From IMG/VR virus record IMGVR_UViG_3300023296_000160, positions 1 to 24,382 of that record: a stretch of DNA of 24,382 nucleotides, one strand, 5' to 3'. Below, in pieces: positions 604 through 24,317 of this stretch (its first letter is position 1; each line of letters starts with the position of its first letter). The notes under the pieces were generated by a model, which saw only the letters and a program-made list of their open reading frames with translations, made no database searches and was not told the origin of the DNA. The position numbers were made by a program, and so were the translations under genes. The DNA comes from a virus.

Positions 604-983
604 TGTGGGAACTAATAAATAAGATAGCTGATTTCTTAATCGGACTTTTTAATCGTTACAATCCTTCAACTGAAAAATCATTTTTAGAAAAGAGAAAAAG
701 CTTAGCTCACTCACAAGTATGGTTGCTAGATATCTTTGAGACTGATCAATCCCTTAAACTGGATACGTTTCAAGTCTTTGAAATCTGGGAGCCTATAATG
801 GTTGAGCGTACTGAACACCCCCCTGAATTCTTTAGCGTTGATGGCGTATTTACCCGCTTGAAAGACCTAGAGGACGACTCATTCATCTCACGATCTGTAG
901 TACGTGGCAAAACAATGTGGACAATGTCCGATGCCTACGTTGCTGATTTCGTACCACGCACAATGGACTTATATGATAGTTAG
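603..983 (+). CDS. Hypothetical protein, possible winged helix, in packaging operon
   Basis: A 126-residue protein that I do not recognise as a named family. The N-terminus (residues 1-19) is an amphipathic, hydrophobic helix rich in W, L, I and F. Residues about 52-116 resemble a winged helix-turn-helix: a helix around DTFQVFEIWEP, a possible recognition helix around VFTRLKDLEDD ending in SFISR, and a hairpin-like wing RSVVRGKTMWTMS. The start overlaps the small terminase stop (TAATG), with GAGGA at 595-599 upstream, and the end overlaps the next gene by 11 bases. This coupling suggests a role in packaging or its control. DNA binding is a structural guess from the residue pattern. Confidence 0.6.
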   Translation: MWELINKIADFLIGLFNRYNPSTEKSFLEKRKSLAHSQVWLLDIFETDQSLKLDTFQVFEIWEPIMVERTEHPPEFFSVDGVFTRLKDLEDDSFISRSVVRGKTMWTMSDAYVADFVPRTMDLYDS

Positions 984-1545
984 TAAACAACTGTCCCCGC
1001 CGCAGGCTGCTGTTATAGCTGCGGTTAAGGACTACTCTTACGTTACAGCCGCCTTCCCCCGTAGCGGAGGAAAAGGCTATGTAGCTCGCAAATGTGCTAT
1101 GACTTACGCTAATGAACACCCTGGTGCTCAAGTGCTGGTTGTCTGCATCTCACCTCAAGAATCTTATAAACAATATAATGCTGAATCTGTAAATCGTAAT
1201 CGCGATTTCTATTCCATTCTACTACATAACGGTTCTACCATTCTATTCTCTAATCATCCCTCTCCTTCAGACTTTACAATCTTTGATGACGTATATCCTA
1301 ACTATGCTGATATAGATCGCGGGAAGTTCTTATTCCTTGCTACTCCTATAGTTGATATGGATGGGAAGGCTGATATATTTACTGAAATATACAATCGAGG
1401 GTTTGACGAAGCATTTCCTGAATGGATATCTATTCATTCTACCTATCTAGATTGTACTCATTGGGAGAACGGCGAAGTTGATCGTATGCGAGTAGCTATA
1501 TCCGAAAAGGCGTTTAAAGAGGACTTCGAAGTAGAATGGAAGTAA
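973..1545 (+). CDS. Truncated, motif-degenerate large-terminase-like ATPase domain protein
   Basis: A 190-residue protein that aligns by eye with residues about 37-253 of the large terminase encoded next to it. Shared landmarks are PPQ (9-11 against 40-42), R..GK.Y.A, PG..VL, NGST, FD, a TP motif, and closely similar ends (RGFDEAFPEWISIH against RGFSDDYPSWVSIH). Catalytic motifs differ. The P-loop reads PRSGGKG (29-35), keeping Lys34 but with Gly in place of Thr. The Walker B region is FTIFDD (101-106), with Asp in place of Glu. The coupling motif is FLATP in place of FISTP. No nuclease domain is present. ATG 973 is preferred because it overlaps the upstream gene by only 11 bases; ATG 928 or GTG 904 in the same frame are possible. 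It overlaps the true terminase by 10 bases. It may be a partner or regulator of the motor, or a remnant. Confidence 0.75.
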   Translation: MIVSKQLSPPQAAVIAAVKDYSYVTAAFPRSGGKGYVARKCAMTYANEHPGAQVLVVCISPQESYKQYNAESVNRNRDFYSILLHNGSTILFSNHPSPSDFTIFDDVYPNYADIDRGKFLFLATPIVDMDGKADIFTEIYNRGFDEAFPEWISIHSTYLDCTHWENGEVDRMRVAISEKAFKEDFEVEWK

Positions 1546-4870: not shown

Positions 4871-6967
4871 ATGGATAAGATCCTAAATATTACTTCTAAG
4901 ATCGTAACCAAAGAGGAAGGCTCTGATGAGCTTAAGATCGTTGGTTACGCGAGCACTTCTGATATAGATAGAGTTGGTGATGTTATACTGCCATCAGCTT
5001 GGAAAGGCGAAGGTTTAAAAGACTTCTCTTCTAACCCAATTATCTTGTTCAACCATAATTATGATAAACCTATCGGTAAAGCCACTAGCCTAGAAATAGA
5101 CGTTAAGGGACTTAAGATAGGAGCTACAATCTCTAAAGCATCAGGTGCTATTTATGACCTAATTAAAGAAGGTGTTCTAGGGGCATTCAGTGTTGGCCTT
5201 AAAGTCAAGCAAGCTGAATGGAATAACAACAACGATGGTCTTGATATAACAGAAGCTGAACTTTTAGAAGTATCAGTAGTATCTGTACCAGCGAACCAAA
5301 CCTCTTTATTCTCGGTTGCAAAATCTTTCGAAAACATTGAAGATTACAACAAGTGGAAAAAAGAACTAAACGTTTCTAAAGACAGTGAAGGTAAGAACCT
5401 TTTAGCTGATTTTCAGAAACAAAGCGAAGAAAGCGTAAATCTAGCCAACCAGTCATTAGCTGGTCCTATATCAGCTAGCGACACGCAACGTGGGATGAAA
5501 CCCAAGGAGAAATCAATGGAATTTGATTATGAAGAATTTGCTAAGACTCTAGCTGACAATGTTGCTAAGTCTACAGCAAGCGCGGTAGCTGGTGAGCTTA
5601 CTAAAAGCCAAACTGCTGCGAACGAAAAAGCTGCTGCTGAAAAAGCTGCAATTGAAGCAGAAGAAAAAGCTGTTAACGAAGCTGAGTCAGCTGAGTCTCG
5701 CGACAGAGCTGTTATCGGTGCTGCAATGTCAGGTGCGCAAAAGCTTTACGAAGACCTTGAAAAACGTCTTTTAGATAAAGAAGAAGATACTCAGAAAGTA
5801 ATTGATGAGATGCGTACAACTCTAGCAGAAAAGTCTGAAGAAATCGTTAAGATGCGCGACAGCAAGCGTCATTTCGGTGGAGCAGAAAGCTCTGACTACA
5901 AAAAGCACTTTGGTGACGAAGCGGGTGAACTATTCATGCTATCTTTGGCAACAAACAAGAAACTGGAAGACACTGTCGCAGGTAAACGCTTCCTAGAAAA
6001 AGTTAACGCTTTCTCTGGTGTTGGTGTATCCTCAGCAGACTTCGAACAAGAAGTTAGCACAAACATCGAACGTGATGTTCAACTAGGGCTTGTTCTATAC
6101 CCAATGTTCCGTGAAGTACAGATGAATGCTGCAAGCATGATCTTCCCAGTTCTACCAGACTCTGGATACGCAGAATTTACTGCTAACCAAACAGCTTCAG
6201 GTATTACTACTACACACGGTAACCTTGCTCAGACTGGTGACACATATGGTTCTCCATACGGTGGTATCGATCTAACAGAACGTACTGTTACAACTAAGAA
6301 ACTAATCAGCCAATCTTTCCTAGGAAATGAAACTGAAGAAGATGCTATCATGCCTATTCTTCCACTGATTAGAGAGGAAATGATTCGTTCACACTCACGT
6401 GGGATTGAAAACATGATTCTAGTTGGTAACCACGCTGATGGTGCTTTCGGTACAGGTGGGGCTTCTCCAAACGGTCTTATACAGATCGCTGATGCGGATG
6501 CAGGACAAACTAACCTTGGAGCTTCTGGCTTCGCAGCTACAGATTCGGTTACAGCTCTTAACCTACTTACGATTCGTCGTGCTATGGGTAAGTATGCTGT
6601 ACGTCCAGACGAACTAGTATATATCGTATCTCTAGATGTATACTACGACCTACTAGAAGATCCTGAATTCCAGGATGCTAACCTAGTTGGCAACATGGCT
6701 ACTAAAATCACTGGTGAAGTTGGAAGCATCTTCGGTAGTAAAGTAGTTATCTCTCCAGAATTCGCACCTAAAGCAGCGGCTAAGTTCTGTGCAGTAGCGG
6801 TTAATACTCGCAACTACTTCATTCCACGTCTACGTGGATTTACAGTAGAGAGCGACTATGAAGTTAAAGAGCAACGTAGAGTACTTGTTGCTTCTCAAAG
6901 AATTGGTTTCACTGATATTATTGATAGTGCAACTTCTGTTTGGGGTCTTCAGTACAAACTAACTTAA
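4871..6967 (+). CDS. Prohead protease-scaffold-major capsid fusion protein
   Basis: A 698-residue fusion. Residues 5-150 are an HK97-type prohead protease (family S78): catalytic His62 in LFNHNYD, nucleophile Ser107 in GAFSVG, and a likely acidic partner Glu133 in LLEVSVVSVPA. Residues about 151-215 are a linker. Residues 216-340 are a charged, Ala/Glu/Lys-rich helical segment with the look of a delta domain that scaffolds assembly. Residues about 341-698 are an HK97-fold capsid protein (FEQEVSTNIERD, LIREEMIRSHSRGIENMILVG, VYYDLLEDPEF, and the closing ESDYEVKEQRRVLVASQ). Most relatives encode protease and capsid separately. An internal start at 5516 can yield the capsid part alone. Self-cleavage during maturation is inferred. 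Confidence 0.9.
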   Translation: MDKILNITSKIVTKEEGSDELKIVGYASTSDIDRVGDVILPSAWKGEGLKDFSSNPIILFNHNYDKPIGKATSLEIDVKGLKIGATISKASGAIYDLIKEGVLGAFSVGLKVKQAEWNNNNDGLDITEAELLEVSVVSVPANQTSLFSVAKSFENIEDYNKWKKELNVSKDSEGKNLLADFQKQSEESVNLANQSLAGPISASDTQRGMKPKEKSMEFDYEEFAKTLADNVAKSTASAVAGELTKSQTAANEKAAAEKAAIEAEEKAVNEAESAESRDRAVIGAAMSGAQKLYEDLEKRLLDKEEDTQKVIDEMRTTLAEKSEEIVKMRDSKRHFGGAESSDYKKHFGDEAGELFMLSLATNKKLEDTVAGKRFLEKVNAFSGVGVSSADFEQEVSTNIERDVQLGLVLYPMFREVQMNAASMIFPVLPDSGYAEFTANQTASGITTTHGNLAQTGDTYGSPYGGIDLTERTVTTKKLISQSFLGNETEEDAIMPILPLIREEMIRSHSRGIENMILVGNHADGAFGTGGASPNGLIQIADADAGQTNLGASGFAATDSVTALNLLTIRRAMGKYAVRPDELVYIVSLDVYYDLLEDPEFQDANLVGNMATKITGEVGSIFGSKVVISPEFAPKAAAKFCAVAVNTRNYFIPRLRGFTVESDYEVKEQRRVLVASQRIGFTDIIDSATSVWGLQYKLT
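5504..5518 (+). promoter_or_regulatory. Internal ribosome binding site and start for capsid precursor
   Basis: AAGGAG at 5504-5509 lies six bases before an in-frame ATG at 5516 (residue Met216 of the fusion). This near-ideal spacing falls exactly at the boundary between the protease linker and the delta-like helical region. The main start at 4871 has only weak Shine-Dalgarno resemblance (GGAG at 4860-4863). This favours strong independent synthesis of the capsid precursor. Confidence 0.75.
5516..6967 (+). CDS. Nested in-frame major capsid precursor
   Basis: Internal initiation at 5516 would give a 483-residue protein beginning MEFDYEEFAKTL, made of the delta-like helical region (about 125 residues) and the HK97-fold shell domain. 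That is the normal domain content of an HK97-type capsid precursor. Many capsid subunits but few protease copies are needed per head, so a nested start solves the dosage problem that the fused frame creates. It resembles the lambda C/Nu3 logic, with capsid in place of scaffold. It shares its stop with the fusion and is followed by a terminator. Confidence 0.65.
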   Translation: MEFDYEEFAKTLADNVAKSTASAVAGELTKSQTAANEKAAAEKAAIEAEEKAVNEAESAESRDRAVIGAAMSGAQKLYEDLEKRLLDKEEDTQKVIDEMRTTLAEKSEEIVKMRDSKRHFGGAESSDYKKHFGDEAGELFMLSLATNKKLEDTVAGKRFLEKVNAFSGVGVSSADFEQEVSTNIERDVQLGLVLYPMFREVQMNAASMIFPVLPDSGYAEFTANQTASGITTTHGNLAQTGDTYGSPYGGIDLTERTVTTKKLISQSFLGNETEEDAIMPILPLIREEMIRSHSRGIENMILVGNHADGAFGTGGASPNGLIQIADADAGQTNLGASGFAATDSVTALNLLTIRRAMGKYAVRPDELVYIVSLDVYYDLLEDPEFQDANLVGNMATKITGEVGSIFGSKVVISPEFAPKAAAKFCAVAVNTRNYFIPRLRGFTVESDYEVKEQRRVLVASQRIGFTDIIDSATSVWGLQYKLT

Positions 6968-17081: not shown

Positions 17082-17847
17082 AAAAATATATCTATTAGGA
17101 GAGCTAGGTAATCGTTTTGGTTCTGAATGGAATGTAGGCGTAGATAATGTTGTAGACATTTTTAAACTTATAAACTGTCAAACGCCTGATTTTAAAGCTT
17201 TTCTTATACAGTGTGGTGAGGCGGGACTAGATCTATCTATATTAGTTGGTGACGAAATCATTGACGATCCTATTGAATTAGGCAACACCAGCGTAGAAGA
17301 TGTGTATATATCCTTAATACCTACAGGTTCTGGAAAAGGGTGGGGGAAAATCCTCCTTGCTATTATAATTACAGTCTTTGCCTTCGTAGTTCTAGGCCCT
17401 GGTGGTACATTAGCTACTGGGGAGGCATTTGGTGCTAGTACAGCTGCTGTAGTTTCAGGTCTGCAGACTGCTGCTTTTGGCATAGCAGCTAACTTAGCTA
17501 TAGGTGGTGTGACTCAATTATTATCTAAAACTCCAGACGCTGATAAAGCAGAAAAATCAGGTAATTTCTTTACTGGACCTCAAAATAGTGTCAAACAAGG
17601 ATTACCAGTACCTCTACTATATGGACAATTATTAGTAGGTGGTGCACCAATAAGTTTTGATCTAAGGGCTGGAAAAACTCCTTCCACGTCGTCCCCAATC
17701 CCATTCTATCCAGGTGATCTAACAGTATCTGGTGGTGGGCTGGTAGACGCGACTTCAGAGGAAGTTGTTATATCAAATGTTCACAATCCAGAAGGATCTA
17801 GCGGGACGATTATTGAATCGGACCTAGTTATAAGAGAGTATCAATAA
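17074..17847 (+). CDS. Tail assembly protein, gpI-like
   Basis: A 257-residue protein of the lambda gpI family. Residues 1-85 look like the beta-grasp (ubiquitin-like) domain of this family (KIYLLGELGNRFG, then VEDVYISLIPTGSGKG). Residues 92-108 (KILLAIIITVFAFVVLG) and about 120-150 are hydrophobic segments typical of the family's middle. The last third is Gly/Ser/Pro-rich (LPVPLLYGQLLVGG). In lambda, gpI is needed for tip assembly with J and is not firmly kept in the virion. The frame lies between K and J as in lambda, overlapping K by 8 bases and J by one. Confidence 0.87.
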   Translation: MNRKIYLLGELGNRFGSEWNVGVDNVVDIFKLINCQTPDFKAFLIQCGEAGLDLSILVGDEIIDDPIELGNTSVEDVYISLIPTGSGKGWGKILLAIIITVFAFVVLGPGGTLATGEAFGASTAAVVSGLQTAAFGIAANLAIGGVTQLLSKTPDADKAEKSGNFFTGPQNSVKQGLPVPLLYGQLLVGGAPISFDLRAGKTPSTSSPIPFYPGDLTVSGGGLVDATSEEVVISNVHNPEGSSGTIIESDLVIREYQ

Positions 17848-20800
17848 TGGCTATAGAATACGATTTTAGTGGCTTATCTGGTGGATTTGGTGGTCGACCT
17901 TCCAATTCTAACGATACCAATATGTATAAAGATCAGACAGTTACTATTGTAGACCTTATCTCCGAAGGTGAGATTGAAGGTCTAGTAGACGGTGCCTCAT
18001 CTGTATACTTGGATGGTACTCCATTAATAAACTCTACAGATTATTCAACTGTAAAATCTGTAAGAACCTATGGTTCTATTACAGCGGGTGACGCAACATT
18101 AACAGTTGCGGCCTCAGCGGGGTTTGATTCTACTATTACGGACGTAGGTAGACGAATTGTTGTTGTGGGTGCTGGCAGAGGTATATCCAGCACTATATCG
18201 GCAGCAGCGGGGACTACTACTATTTATGATTCTGCAGGCGGTTTTACTGCTGCTGACATATCTATAGGAGGAGCAGGTTCCGGAACTACGTTTAGAATAC
18301 CTGGTGGTGGCGTAAATGGTTCTGAGTGGGTAGGTAGAATTATTGCTATAGTTAGTGCAAATTCCGCTACTATTTCTAGACCTATTGCTACAGAAGTAAC
18401 TTCTGGGTCATTACTTTCTGACTTAGTAACTACCGTTGCTTCTATTACTAATACTGCATCAATAGAGCTTGCGGCCGTTGCCGTTGCTTCAGCAACTAAT
18501 ACCAACGTTTTAGTCTACCCAAAATATCAAGCAACTACTAGTGCTAATAACTATAATTTTGAGAACGTAGGTTATGAAATCTCTACGGGTACTCTATCTC
18601 AACCAGTTAATAAACTTCTTACACAGAGCAACTCTACTTCATACGCTTTTAATGATGAACTTAAGCAGCATACTGACTTTCAATCTGGAACGGGTTCTTC
18701 TGTAATTAAGACGGCATCATCTACACTTGGACTTAGTAATGCAGAAGAAGCTGACTTTATTCGCATGACTATTGTGGTTCCTTCCATGATTAAAGTTAGT
18801 CAAAACTCTGGTAGAGAATATTCAACCAGAGCTGAACTACAAATATTCGTACAGTATAAAAGAGATGGTTCTTGGTACCCTTCTATTACAGATGATACTG
18901 TACCTTATTATGGGCCATCTACAAACCAAGCTAATGGTCGGGGAGCCTCTCTATTCAATGGTGGTGCTAACACTGATAGTAATGGTGGTATGATAGTTGC
19001 AAAAACCAAAACCAAATTTATTAGGGACTTCTTCATTAACCTAGAACCCCTAAAGCCTTTTGATGATTTCAGAGTTGTACTTAAACGTGTTACTATTGAT
19101 GAAGAAACTATAGATCATTACGTAGGACAGCATCAAACATATCTCCAAAGTATCACTGTAGGAGTGGTAGATAAATTATCAATGCCTCATACCGCATTAG
19201 CTGGTATATCTGTTAATTCTTCTGAATTCAACAAAGTACCTACTCGAAGCTACGAAGCTAAGGGTATTAAAATGCAGGTGCCTACAAACTACTTTCCGGC
19301 TACCAGAGCATATACCAGAAACGTTACAACTGGCGCGCAAGAAAGCACGTATCAAGCATGGGACGGTAAATTCAGGGGCGATCTTACTGACACTACATGG
19401 AGAGATACCCCTTCTAATATAAACTATAATAAAGTTTATTGTAATAACCCTGCTTGGATATTTTACGATCTACTAATCAACAACAGATATGGTGTGGGAG
19501 AATTCGTAGATGCAACTTTAGTAGACAAATTTCAGCTTTTCCAAATTGCTAGGTATTGTGATGAATTAGTACCTGATGGTAATGGCGGAACAGAGCCTAG
19601 ATTTACATGTAACGTTTACATAAAAGAGAAACAAGAAGCTATAGAACTACTATCTAATTTAGCTAGTATTTTCCGCTCGCTTAATCTCTGGGTACAAGGT
19701 AAAGCAACCTTAGTACAGGATCGGCCTAAAGAACCCGTATATACTTTTAACAAAGCTAATATAATGGGTGGTCAATTTATGTACCAATCTTCAGGAAACA
19801 GACTTAGAAGTAATCAAATAAATGTTACTTGGAACAACCCAGATAAGTTATACCAACAACAAATAGAGACTGTAGAAGATACGGAATCTATATTAGAGCA
19901 CGGTCGAATTATAACTCAAGACGTTGTGGCTTTAGGGTGTACGAGTCAGGGACAGGCTAATAGACTTGGTCGCTGGATGTATCTTACTGAGAAACTAGAG
20001 AGTAGTGTTATTAGTTTTAAGACTGCAATGAACGCTTCTTTCGTAGTTCCTGGTGATATCATATACATTCAAGACTACGATAGAACTGGATATACACAAA
20101 GTGGTCGTATAAGTGCAACTGGTACATTAGATACTAATACTATTCCATTAGACAGAAGCGTTAGTTTAGGTACTAGTTCATATAATTTGCACTTGATATT
20201 CCCTACGGGTGGGGCCTACTTGTCTGAGGATAGTGCTACATTTACTACTTCAGGTACCGTACAACTAGCTACGAGTGCACTTACTGGAACAAGCACTTCA
20301 TTCATTAGTCAACTACGAGTTGGCCGTCCTATAGTAATTAATGGCACTTCTTACGTAGTGGACACTATAGCTTCTGATACCGCTGCTACCGTAGTAACTA
20401 CAGGTACTGAAGCGGCGTTATCAACAGCTACTATCATACTGGAGAAGGGTGACTTACTAGAATCGGTTGATGTAGACGGAACAATAACTTCCATAACTAC
20501 AGCTACTCTGGCTTCTAATATTATTGATTCTTCTAATAATAAGGTTGATTCTTACTGGACTGAATTCAGTAGGGTTGAGACTCGTGGTGTTACTTCAACT
20601 GGAACAGTATCTAGCTTAGAAGTTAGTGCTCCTTTCAGTGGTACACCTAATTCTGAAGTGACTTGGGCTATCTCAAGAGTTGATAACATTAATACTGCTG
20701 AAATAACTAGAAAGTACCGTGTTATAACAATGGTTGAAGAAGGCCCTAATGAGTTTGCTATTTCAGCTAACGAATACTTTGGTGACAAATTTGATGCTAT

Positions 20801-23800
20801 TGACAAGGGCTACTCTCTATACCAGAGAACATATGAAGCATTCCCTAATTACAGTGATACCGTTCCGGTTCCTCGTAATTTACTACTATCTTTCGACTCA
20901 GGTGGTGGTAACACAGGCTTAATTGAAGGGGCCGCTAACGGCTCTAAAGCTAATGTGACTTGGGAACAACCACTTGGTACAGGTGTAGAAACTGTATACC
21001 CTTACCTATTTGGATACCACGTTAGACACAACATGAATGAAGATAGAGAGTTCAACTCTTTTTCTTCTGTATCGTCAGAAACACCAACATTTACAATAGA
21101 AAACCTTATACCAGGTGACTACAAAATTCAGGTAAGATCTGTAAGCAATATTGGTCAGGTGTCTAAGTGGGTAAATGCAAATGCAACCTTCAATGTAATT
21201 GATCAAAGAAATGACGTATTCGTAACCGAGAACGTTAATGGTCTTAGCAAAGGTGGTAGTGTTGATACTACTTTCGACCTTGTAGCCGATACAGGTATAC
21301 TTACTGTTGGGGCAGCAGCCTTCTCAGTCACGGGGCCAAAGGGCGCGATATATGATGTAACCAGTTCCCCTACTACATTCGATTTTTCCGGTTTATCTAC
21401 TGGGGAATCTGGCTACCTAGCATTTGATGCTTCTACTGGTCAGTTCGTGGTTGCTGAATTATATACTGATGCTGTTGTTACAAATAATAGTGCTGCTACT
21501 TCTAATTTCCAATACTGGCAGACAATTAACGCTGCTAATAAAGGTCTTTCGGTATTAGCAGCTACAGCTACTTATACAGCTACTGAAACTATAAATAGTG
21601 TAGTATATCCTGCTTGGAGTGATACTATCCCAACTTCTGCTGATCTATCTGCTAGTCTTAGTGCTGGCGATTTGGTTAAGTTTGGTACTAGTACTGAATA
21701 TTCAGAATCAGCAGATGACTGGTACGGCTTCGTAAAATCAGTTAGTGCTACAGCTATAACTACGAGAACCCCAGTTAACAGAAGTTTCTCTACGGATAGA
21801 ATTTACCAAATGGCATGGAAGCCAGACCTATCTCTTGACTTTGTAGTTCTGAAGGTTCTTAATACCGCAGGTGTATTCTCTTTAAGCACATTCTCAGCTA
21901 ACAGAGGTGAGAAGATTACTTGGACTGCTATTGTCGATGATGATGGTACTAAAGAACGAGTAGAAGGTAATACAGACCTACAAGGCGAAGATGGCGTTAC
22001 TTTCTTACTAGAAGATGGTAGCGTTATGCTAGAACAGACTAAATCTGATCTAGCAGTAATTCAAGGACAATTAGTCACAGATTTAGCAACAACCCTTAGT
22101 TCTGTAACTACGGTTGAGAGCCTAATAGGTGAAATAACTCAGTCAGTAGGAGATGTTTATGTTAGCGCCTCTGCTCCAGTACCGGGGGTTGGTTACCCTG
22201 ACCCTATTCCTACTTTCTCTAGATGGTACGAAAGCCCACAAAATACTCCATACTATTGGGATGGTGCGGCTTGGCAGAGTCTTGAAGACAGTAGATTTGC
22301 TGATTTTGATGGTGAAATAACCGTACTTCAGTCTACGTCAGCAGGTCTAGCTACCGATGTAGTAGCCAACGCTACCGCAATTGATACATTAGAAACTCTA
22401 ATTACAACGGGTGAAACAGTATCTGCTGTAGCTGCCCGAGTAACACAACTAGAATCCAGCATATCTTTTGTAGAGGACGAAGCTGACTTAGCTCTAACTC
22501 TAGAAGATGATGCTACCTTAGAACTGGAAACAGCAGACAGTGTCGCACAAGCTACACAAACCCTGGAAACTAGAGTCGAAGTATCAGAGGGTGATATACT
22601 TGTTCAGTCTACTTTACTTACTGAATTAAGGTCTGATCTTACGACTGCTGAAGGTACTATTGCTACCTCGTCTACGGCTACTTCAGCTCTGACTACTAGA
22701 ATAACTGATAATGAAGATGGTATAGTGGTTCTAGCTGCGGACATAACTCAATTAGAATCTGATTTAGCTACCACAGACGGTAGTGTTACAGCTAATGCTA
22801 CGGCTACAAGTGCTCTTACTACAAGAGTAACGTCTGCTGAAGGCACTATAACTACCCAGTCTAGTGACATTACTAGTTTGACCTCTGATCTAGTTACTGC
22901 TAATACTGCTATTACGGCAGGGGCTACTGCAGCAACAGCACTTACTACACGAGTAACAGCCACTGAAGGTTCAATAACTACATCAGCAACTGATATTACT
23001 AATCTAGAATCTACAGTTAACAATGGTACTACTGGTGTAGCAGCTACTTCTACAGCCCTTGGAGGGCTAACAACTAGAGTAACAACTGCTGAAGGTACAA
23101 TATCTACATCAGCAACTGATATTACTAATCTGGAATCTACAGTTAACAATGGTACTACTGGTGTAGCAGCTACTTCTACAGCCCTTGGAGGGCTAACAAC
23201 TAGAGTAACAACTGCTGAAGGTACAATATCTACATCAGCAACTGATATTACTAATCTAGAATCTACAGTTAACAATGGTACTACTGGTGTAGCAGCTACT
23301 TCTACAGCCCTTGGAGGGCTAACAACTAGAGTAACAACTGCTGAAGGTACAATATCTACATCAGCAACTGATATTACTAATCTAGAATCTACAGTTAACA
23401 ATGGTACTACTGGTGTAGCAGCAACAGCAACAGCACTATCTGGAGTAACAACTAGAGTGGGCGTTACTGAAGGAGTAGCTACAACAGCCGCTTCAGATAT
23501 ATCTGCACTTACTACTACAGTAGGTGAAAATACCACTACTATTGGTACACAAGCTACTAGTATTAACGGGATCGAGGCTCAATACTCTGTTACTGCTGAT
23601 GTAAATGGTAGGTTAACAGGATTCAAGCTTATAAGCTCTCCTTCTACCAGCGAATTTATAATAGTAGCTGATACCTTTAAGATCATAGACCCGGCTGATA
23701 CTTCTGCCGGTGCTCAAGTAACGCCTTTTGAATATTCAGACGGTGTTCTTTCTATGAATGGTAATGTTAATATAGGTGGCGATCTTATTGTAAACGGTAC

Positions 23801-24317
23801 TATAGCAGCAGCTCAAATGGCTGCTGACTCTATTACTACAGGCTCTATTCAAACGGGTGCTGTAACCAATGGCGAAATTGGTACTGGTGCTGTAAATACT
23901 AATGAAATTCTATCTGACGCGACAGCAGTTCTAGTCACAGATTATATTGATAGCTCCACTACTAGTGATGCAAATATAATCTGTGCTGAAGTACCTATAA
24001 CTTCTACAGGTAGTAAATTGTACATAACTTTCGGTTTCAGTTATGGTTTGGTAAAAATAGATCTATCTGGTAGTACGGGTCTAATGCTCTACCAAATTGT
24101 TTTAGATAATGCTGTATCAGGACCTGTGTTATTTTCTGGATACACTCCTTCAGTAGGTCAAACTACAGCCTTAGGGAATGTATACCATGGAATTGAAGTA
24201 ACACTGCCGGCGGCATCTTATACTATATATCTGATAGCTTATCCTGCAACTACAAGTAGCGGAGTAGCCACAACAGTTTCACAAAGAACTCTAGGGGTTA
24301 TGGAGGTAAAACGATAA
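17847..24317 (+). CDS. Central tail fiber / host specificity protein, gpJ-like
   Basis: A 2156-residue tail tip protein that should form the central fiber and contact the host receptor. Lambda-J landmarks are clear: VDLISEGEIEGLVDGASSVY (35-54), YNPQTRQYSGIWDG-like segment (about 495), ARYCDELVPDGNGGTEPRFTC, and WVQGKATLVQDRP (about 610). VEDTESILEHGR and LGCTSQGQANRLGRWM follow. A fibronectin type III-like domain lies at about 1006-1118. A RWYESPQ...PYYWDGAAWQ module lies near 1460. Eight 42-residue repeats span 1574-1909. A central straight fiber domain (DUF1983-like, IIVADTFKIIDP) starts near 1911, and the C-terminus (about 2030-2156) would be the receptor-facing tip. Lambda J has 1132 residues. 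The extra length comes from an insert near 60-260, one near 790-860, and the repeats. Confidence 0.92.
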   Translation: MAIEYDFSGLSGGFGGRPSNSNDTNMYKDQTVTIVDLISEGEIEGLVDGASSVYLDGTPLINSTDYSTVKSVRTYGSITAGDATLTVAASAGFDSTITDVGRRIVVVGAGRGISSTISAAAGTTTIYDSAGGFTAADISIGGAGSGTTFRIPGGGVNGSEWVGRIIAIVSANSATISRPIATEVTSGSLLSDLVTTVASITNTASIELAAVAVASATNTNVLVYPKYQATTSANNYNFENVGYEISTGTLSQPVNKLLTQSNSTSYAFNDELKQHTDFQSGTGSSVIKTASSTLGLSNAEEADFIRMTIVVPSMIKVSQNSGREYSTRAELQIFVQYKRDGSWYPSITDDTVPYYGPSTNQANGRGASLFNGGANTDSNGGMIVAKTKTKFIRDFFINLEPLKPFDDFRVVLKRVTIDEETIDHYVGQHQTYLQSITVGVVDKLSMPHTALAGISVNSSEFNKVPTRSYEAKGIKMQVPTNYFPATRAYTRNVTTGAQESTYQAWDGKFRGDLTDTTWRDTPSNINYNKVYCNNPAWIFYDLLINNRYGVGEFVDATLVDKFQLFQIARYCDELVPDGNGGTEPRFTCNVYIKEKQEAIELLSNLASIFRSLNLWVQGKATLVQDRPKEPVYTFNKANIMGGQFMYQSSGNRLRSNQINVTWNNPDKLYQQQIETVEDTESILEHGRIITQDVVALGCTSQGQANRLGRWMYLTEKLESSVISFKTAMNASFVVPGDIIYIQDYDRTGYTQSGRISATGTLDTNTIPLDRSVSLGTSSYNLHLIFPTGGAYLSEDSATFTTSGTVQLATSALTGTSTSFISQLRVGRPIVINGTSYVVDTIASDTAATVVTTGTEAALSTATIILEKGDLLESVDVDGTITSITTATLASNIIDSSNNKVDSYWTEFSRVETRGVTSTGTVSSLEVSAPFSGTPNSEVTWAISRVDNINTAEITRKYRVITMVEEGPNEFAISANEYFGDKFDAIDKGYSLYQRTYEAFPNYSDTVPVPRNLLLSFDSGGGNTGLIEGAANGSKANVTWEQPLGTGVETVYPYLFGYHVRHNMNEDREFNSFSSVSSETPTFTIENLIPGDYKIQVRSVSNIGQVSKWVNANATFNVIDQRNDVFVTENVNGLSKGGSVDTTFDLVADTGILTVGAAAFSVTGPKGAIYDVTSSPTTFDFSGLSTGESGYLAFDASTGQFVVAELYTDAVVTNNSAATSNFQYWQTINAANKGLSVLAATATYTATETINSVVYPAWSDTIPTSADLSASLSAGDLVKFGTSTEYSESADDWYGFVKSVSATAITTRTPVNRSFSTDRIYQMAWKPDLSLDFVVLKVLNTAGVFSLSTFSANRGEKITWTAIVDDDGTKERVEGNTDLQGEDGVTFLLEDGSVMLEQTKSDLAVIQGQLVTDLATTLSSVTTVESLIGEITQSVGDVYVSASAPVPGVGYPDPIPTFSRWYESPQNTPYYWDGAAWQSLEDSRFADFDGEITVLQSTSAGLATDVVANATAIDTLETLITTGETVSAVAARVTQLESSISFVEDEADLALTLEDDATLELETADSVAQATQTLETRVEVSEGDILVQSTLLTELRSDLTTAEGTIATSSTATSALTTRITDNEDGIVVLAADITQLESDLATTDGSVTANATATSALTTRVTSAEGTITTQSSDITSLTSDLVTANTAITAGATAATALTTRVTATEGSITTSATDITNLESTVNNGTTGVAATSTALGGLTTRVTTAEGTISTSATDITNLESTVNNGTTGVAATSTALGGLTTRVTTAEGTISTSATDITNLESTVNNGTTGVAATSTALGGLTTRVTTAEGTISTSATDITNLESTVNNGTTGVAATATALSGVTTRVGVTEGVATTAASDISALTTTVGENTTTIGTQATSINGIEAQYSVTADVNGRLTGFKLISSPSTSEFIIVADTFKIIDPADTSAGAQVTPFEYSDGVLSMNGNVNIGGDLIVNGTIAAAQMAADSITTGSIQTGAVTNGEIGTGAVNTNEILSDATAVLVTDYIDSSTTSDANIICAEVPITSTGSKLYITFGFSYGLVKIDLSGSTGLMLYQIVLDNAVSGPVLFSGYTPSVGQTTALGNVYHGIEVTLPAASYTIYLIAYPATTSSGVATTVSQRTLGVMEVKR
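22566..23573 (+). repeat. Eight 126-bp (42-residue) repeats within the J-like fiber gene
   Basis: Units start at 22566, 22692, 22818, 22944, 23070, 23196, 23322 and 23448, each opening with a codon run for (T/E)TR(V/I). Each unit encodes 42 residues, exactly six heptads. In the conserved unit hydrophobic residues fall at positions 4, 11, 18, 25, 32 and 39. This suggests a trimeric coiled coil. The first three units and the last one have drifted; the middle ones have not. Confidence 0.95.
22983..23422 (+). repeat. Near-identical 126-bp tandem array inside fiber repeats
   Basis: Three full 126-bp copies (22983-23108, 23109-23234, 23235-23360) and a 62-bp partial fourth differ at only one silent base (G at 23132 in the second copy). 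DNA identity this high, next to diverged copies of the same repeat, points to recent duplication or ongoing gene conversion. Confidence 0.95.

Follow-up and report, generated by a model that had tools for sequence, protein, structure and literature searches.

A truncated, catalytically degenerate TerL ATPase-like protein encoded between TerS and TerL in a marine-type phage

The terminase locus of a marine-type phage encodes, directly in front of a complete large terminase (TerL), a second and truncated protein, which is a diverged homologue of T5-type TerL ATPase domains. The phage is represented by the IMG/VR record IMGVR_UViG_3300023296_000160, of which positions 1 to 24,382, the whole stretch analysed here, are referred to as the window. 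The short open reading frame starts with an ATG at 973, terminates with a stop codon at 1543–1545, and has lost several of the residues on which TerL catalysis depends. We favour, tentatively and with slightly less than even confidence, the reading that it is a TerL ATPase-domain paralogue, domesticated and catalytically dead, which would have been gained together with the neighboring ORF P0003, would be expressed from the same operon as TerS and TerL, and would act by binding. The locus comprises the following features:

119–147, + strand: perfect sigma-70 promoter (TTGACA-17-TATAAT) before TerS, probable start of the transcription unit
154–603, + strand: terminase small subunit, TerS (phrog_3802, 5e-38)
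603–983, + strand: P0003, a 126-aa orphan ORF between TerS and TerL
973–1545, + strand: short TerL-ATPase-like protein, catalytically degenerate, 190 aa
1536–2849, + strand: full-length T5-type TerL with intact catalytic motifs (phrog_2, 1e-52; Pfam Terminase_6N and 6C)
2869–2897, + strand: perfect sigma-70 consensus promoter directly past TerL

The short frame overlaps P0003 upstream by 11 bp and TerL downstream by 10 bp, in agreement with the sequence-only reading, which had described an intact frame overlapping both neighbors. A second IMG/VR contig (L001) carries the same gene and is 100% identical across 7,542 shared bases, and the gene is therefore not an artefact of a single assembly. 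Its codon adaptation (0.687, versus 0.645 for TerL) resembles that of its neighbors. The gene order reads TerS, P0003, short protein, TerL, HNH protein, portal, protease-capsid, and lambda-like tail module. Exact matches to the sigma-70 consensus occur in the window at 119–147 and 2869–2897 only, and a similar promoter occupies the same post-TerL place in many related contigs (L010–L025 and others). Because perfect promoters flank the four genes and the post-TerL promoter recurs in relatives, TerS, P0003, the short gene, and TerL most likely form one transcription unit.

Several other features of the record were also observed. It opens with a run of short ACTATT/ACTAT repeats (1–85). The head maturation protease and the major capsid protein are fused in a single 698-aa ORF (4871–6967), while a 2,156-aa lambda J-like tail protein (17847–24317) contains several near-identical C-terminal tandem repeats (TSATDITNLESTVNNGTTGVAATSTALGGLTTRVTTAEG). 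The second contig continues upstream of 5029 with minus-strand genes, including polynucleotide kinase-like and exonuclease-like ORFs.

Sequence comparison confirms that the short protein is related to T5-type TerLs. By BLASTP, it aligns with the TerL of the same window at 65.5 bits (E 3e-17, 26% identity over 218 columns), and the alignment spans from the PPQ motif to just short of the nuclease linker, which bears out the by-eye claim of kinship with the ATPase half of the adjacent TerL over this range. Most TerLs of the same clade give about 63–79 bits against the short protein, and its identity to TerLs lies between 26 and 31%. The short protein matches 894 phage records with up to 72 bits, and nearly all of the matches listed are full-length TerL proteins from T5-like phages. 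Its best match within 35 additional viral contigs is again a full TerL, except in the contig of the same phage. Nothing in Pfam matched, and among the PHROGs the top hit, to a TerL family, is weak (0.0038), so that routine annotation would probably miss the protein. A search of the PDB by sequence alone gave no TerL match.

An AlphaFold model of the short protein, guided by aligned TerL ATPase domains, which bias it towards the TerL fold, reached a pLDDT of 79.8 and a pTM of 0.79; the alignment-free model was poor (pLDDT 43). The best PDB match of the guided model is the ATPase of P74-26 TerL (Foldseek 3e-8; VIA Z 18.6 over 179 residues at 2.2 Å), followed by the TerL ATPases of HK97, D6E, T4 gp17, and Sf6. 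The comparison with TerL ATPase folds that the sequence-only reading had proposed thus yields a match, albeit an alignment-guided one, and the short protein is predicted to adopt a TerL-type ASCE ATPase fold.

The motif anatomy was derived from an alignment with 33 T5-type TerLs, in which the following elements of the short protein can be located:

1000–1005, + strand: Q-motif equivalent PPQ (codons of Pro10-Gln11), kept
1057–1080, + strand: degenerate P-loop PRSGGKGY, residues 29–36; Arg30 (cis) and Lys34 kept, Thr replaced by Gly35
1282–1293, + strand: degenerate Walker B, Phe104-Asp105-Asp106-Val107; Asp kept, Glu replaced by Asp
1336–1347, + strand: coupling motif equivalent Leu122-Ala123-Thr124-Pro125 (ISTP in TerL)
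1348–1542, + strand: lid subdomain region (RGFDEAFPEWISIHSTYLD...), the best preserved part, ending with the ATPase domain

The short protein begins about 32 aa into TerL and stops where the ATPase domain does, without the C-terminal RNase H-like nuclease, whose absence had been recognized earlier. Among the 70 columns that are invariant in the 33 TerLs, 27 are kept, 28 are changed, and 15 are lacking. Specifically, the P-loop SRRTGKT of TerL has become PRSGGKG, with the Lys retained and the following Thr exchanged for Gly (GKT to GKG); Walker B has changed from FDEA to FDDV; and the coupling motif has changed from ISTPRG to LATPIV, in which Thr-Pro is kept and Ser is replaced by Ala. These three alterations are as first described by eye. 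The loss of some 19 residues claimed between Walker B and the coupling motif is also real, covering about 13–19 residues that include AFNxALRPTL, and two deletions had been overlooked, one of about 12 aa after SPNYS and one of 7 aa that includes the invariant VGRSY directly before Walker B. The distant TerLs L081 and L084 (29% identity to the TerL of the window) retain GK, DE, and STP. The short protein, by contrast with the motif set of functional TerLs (GK[ST], DE, and the coupling motif), carries GKG, DD, and LATP.

The deletions also bear on the arginines that act in trans. In a profile alignment, VGRSY falls on the P74-26 loop bearing the trans-acting R139, whose position is marked by an R139A chain. 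The trans-acting R158 of D6E TerL is located between α3 and β4 (PMC5727402), and the Arg of LRPTL, which follows Walker B and precedes the coupling strand, takes this same place, an equivalence by position only; the TerLs of PG07 and VCPH carry Met there. Both segments are deleted in the short protein, which is left without a trans-acting Arg at a known position, and of the Arg residues conserved in TerLs, only the cis Arg in the P-loop has clearly been retained. Because the P-loop Thr, the Walker B Glu, and the trans-Arg segments are lost, the short protein should be poor at ATP hydrolysis and unable to complete the active site of a neighbor, and it may still bind nucleotide.

In T5, L003, and L035, the TerS-TerL slot holds no gene and TerS directly adjoins TerL. 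The TerS-TerL junction was observed to be variable in marine phages with T5-type terminases (L011, L013, L014, L017, L023, L040, and L041). Slot cargo in relatives, located between TerS and TerL or immediately upstream of TerL and judged by eye from the sequences, includes lysis-type genes with spanin-like pairs, an endolysin-like ORF, a PAS-domain-like protein, small basic proteins, and structural ORFs. Relatives of P0003 were found in none of the viral contigs, phages, or families searched. The short gene and P0003 are this phage's own cargo in the slot, inserted together. Joint insertion and translation at a junction that is closed in T5, L003, and L035 would also suit a protein that, with P0003 as its dedicated partner and independently of nucleotide, replaces a lost TerS function or serves the motor as a structural spacer or cap; we consider this quite improbable, since TerS itself is intact and P0003 has no relatives.

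Phylogenetic trees give the short protein a very long branch that arises close to the base of the T5-type clade, outside or beside it, with weak support, and the AU test does not reject a clade uniting it with the TerL of the window (p-AU 0.36). A recent duplication of its own TerL is disfavoured by the identity of 26–31% and by the very long branch, the placement of which is weakly supported. The gene may have arisen by duplication inside the lineage or have been captured from a sister lineage.

The short gene was found in one phage lineage only, on two identical contigs. Searches of the viral contigs (with the protein and with a degenerate P-loop pattern), the phages, and the genome contigs returned TerLs or nothing, and so did searches of 16 related viral records; those searches that used single 8-mers or exact patterns reach close relatives only. 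The sequence-only reading had suggested that the same pair might be sought in other phages; such a pairing of a short protein with TerL is absent from all other phages, viral contigs, and genomes searched. Additionally, none of the open-access papers searched was found to describe a truncated, dead, or pseudo-enzyme TerL paralogue beside an intact TerL.

Confinement to a single lineage and to a slot with high gene turnover, together with the loss of half of the TerL-invariant residues and of several conserved segments, would fit a passively decaying fragment, namely a captured or duplicated TerL gene that was cut off behind the ATPase domain and is open by luck. Since the only other copy of the gene is identical, two neutral-drift tests were used in place of dN/dS; they start from the codons of its own TerL, and their results depend on this choice and on the alignment. 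When TerL codons drifted neutrally to 50% retention at invariant sites, about half being kept in the short protein, a mean of 4.7 stops arose, and about 1% of the simulations were stop-free at the same divergence with indels left uncounted, whereas the short gene has zero stops and several indels, all of which keep the frame. Among the changed invariant sites, the fraction with at least two base changes is 0.41–0.52, versus about 0.14 under neutral drift, and this excess (p ≤ 0.003) also holds after excluding near-gap sites. Part of the divergence is possibly older than the loss of TerL function, which limits both tests. The pattern is at odds with simple neutral decay, which is disfavoured; because the replaced sites have undergone repeated changes and other invariant sites have been preserved, it speaks for selective retention and not for uniform decay. 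The same absence of stops, frame-keeping indels, and multi-hit excess argue against a recent pseudogene, and the host-like codon use and the compact overlapping junctions at both ends further count against a decaying fragment, which we regard as unlikely. The earlier claim of a retained function is thereby upheld as far as neutral decay is concerned, but the ordinary ring subunit that it had offered as one such function is weakened, because both trans-arginine-finger segments are deleted.

Under the favoured reading of a domesticated, dead paralogue, a TerL-type ATPase-domain gene would have entered the TerS-TerL slot together with P0003, and its product would be translated from the operon shared with TerS and TerL. 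The protein would work through binding, not through ATP hydrolysis, and its likeliest partners would be TerL, TerS, or the portal at the packaging vertex, because these share either fold or expression with it. Once bound, it would modulate the assembly, stoichiometry, or firing of the motor. A more specific proposal, that a natural pseudo-ATPase TerL paralogue joins or caps the motor and tunes packaging, which would make a hetero-oligomeric DNA-packaging motor, appears doubtful to us. Dead subunits usually damage motors, which counts against the favoured reading, and the deletions also take away surface elements that a seat in the TerL ring may require. On the other hand, T4 heteropentamers with inactive gp17 still package, at lower speed and with more pauses (PMC8589836). 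Since these inactive subunits can sit in the motor and slow it, the short protein could, without being catalytic, tune the motor or the way it assembles.

A role outside the phage's own motor can also be envisaged, with the short protein as an accessory (moron-like) product that serves as decoy or modulator of TerL-sensing defence (Avs1-3), or as inhibitor of the motor of a rival phage or satellite. Avs systems are known TerL sensors that recognize large terminases (8dgc; PMC12931631), and the short gene and its orphan neighbor occupy a slot that relatives fill with unrelated accessory genes. This role is nevertheless improbable, as the PADLOC families show no meaningful similarity (no match to the models up to E 10), expression alongside the TerS and TerL of this phage, instead of at an early stage, is ill-suited to a defence blocker, and a TerL-like decoy was not found in the literature searched.

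Compared with known systems, the putative dead paralogue resembles the ATPase domain of T5-type (Demerecviridae) TerLs (PHROG 2; Terminase_6N) in sequence, predicted fold, motif order, and lid, and its gene likewise sits beside TerS and TerL; it differs in having 190 aa, without the N-terminal 32 aa and the nuclease, and in lacking the P-loop Thr, the Walker B Glu, VGRSY, and LRPTL. Split large terminases, such as that of phiPDS1, in which two CDS are the halves of one enzyme (PMC10773633), share with it a separate ATPase-like CDS within the terminase locus. An ordinary split TerL is ruled out here, because a complete TerL with both domains follows at 1536–2849 and the extra ATPase-like protein is degenerate. 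The ATPase-defective gp17 of T4 motors (PMC8589836) is likewise a TerL-type subunit without ATP hydrolysis, as is predicted for the short protein. That gp17 is a laboratory point mutant of the full protein, whereas the short protein is natural, truncated, and encoded by a separate gene.

Tailed-phage packaging motors are regarded as rings of a single kind of TerL subunit. A dead TerL ATPase-domain gene kept in a terminase operon, if our reading is true, would amount to a naturally occurring pseudo-enzyme of the packaging motor, and would provide a natural system for testing subunit differences and the tuning of packaging by dead subunits. If the short protein instead meets TerL-sensing immunity, it would represent a new kind of counter-defence.
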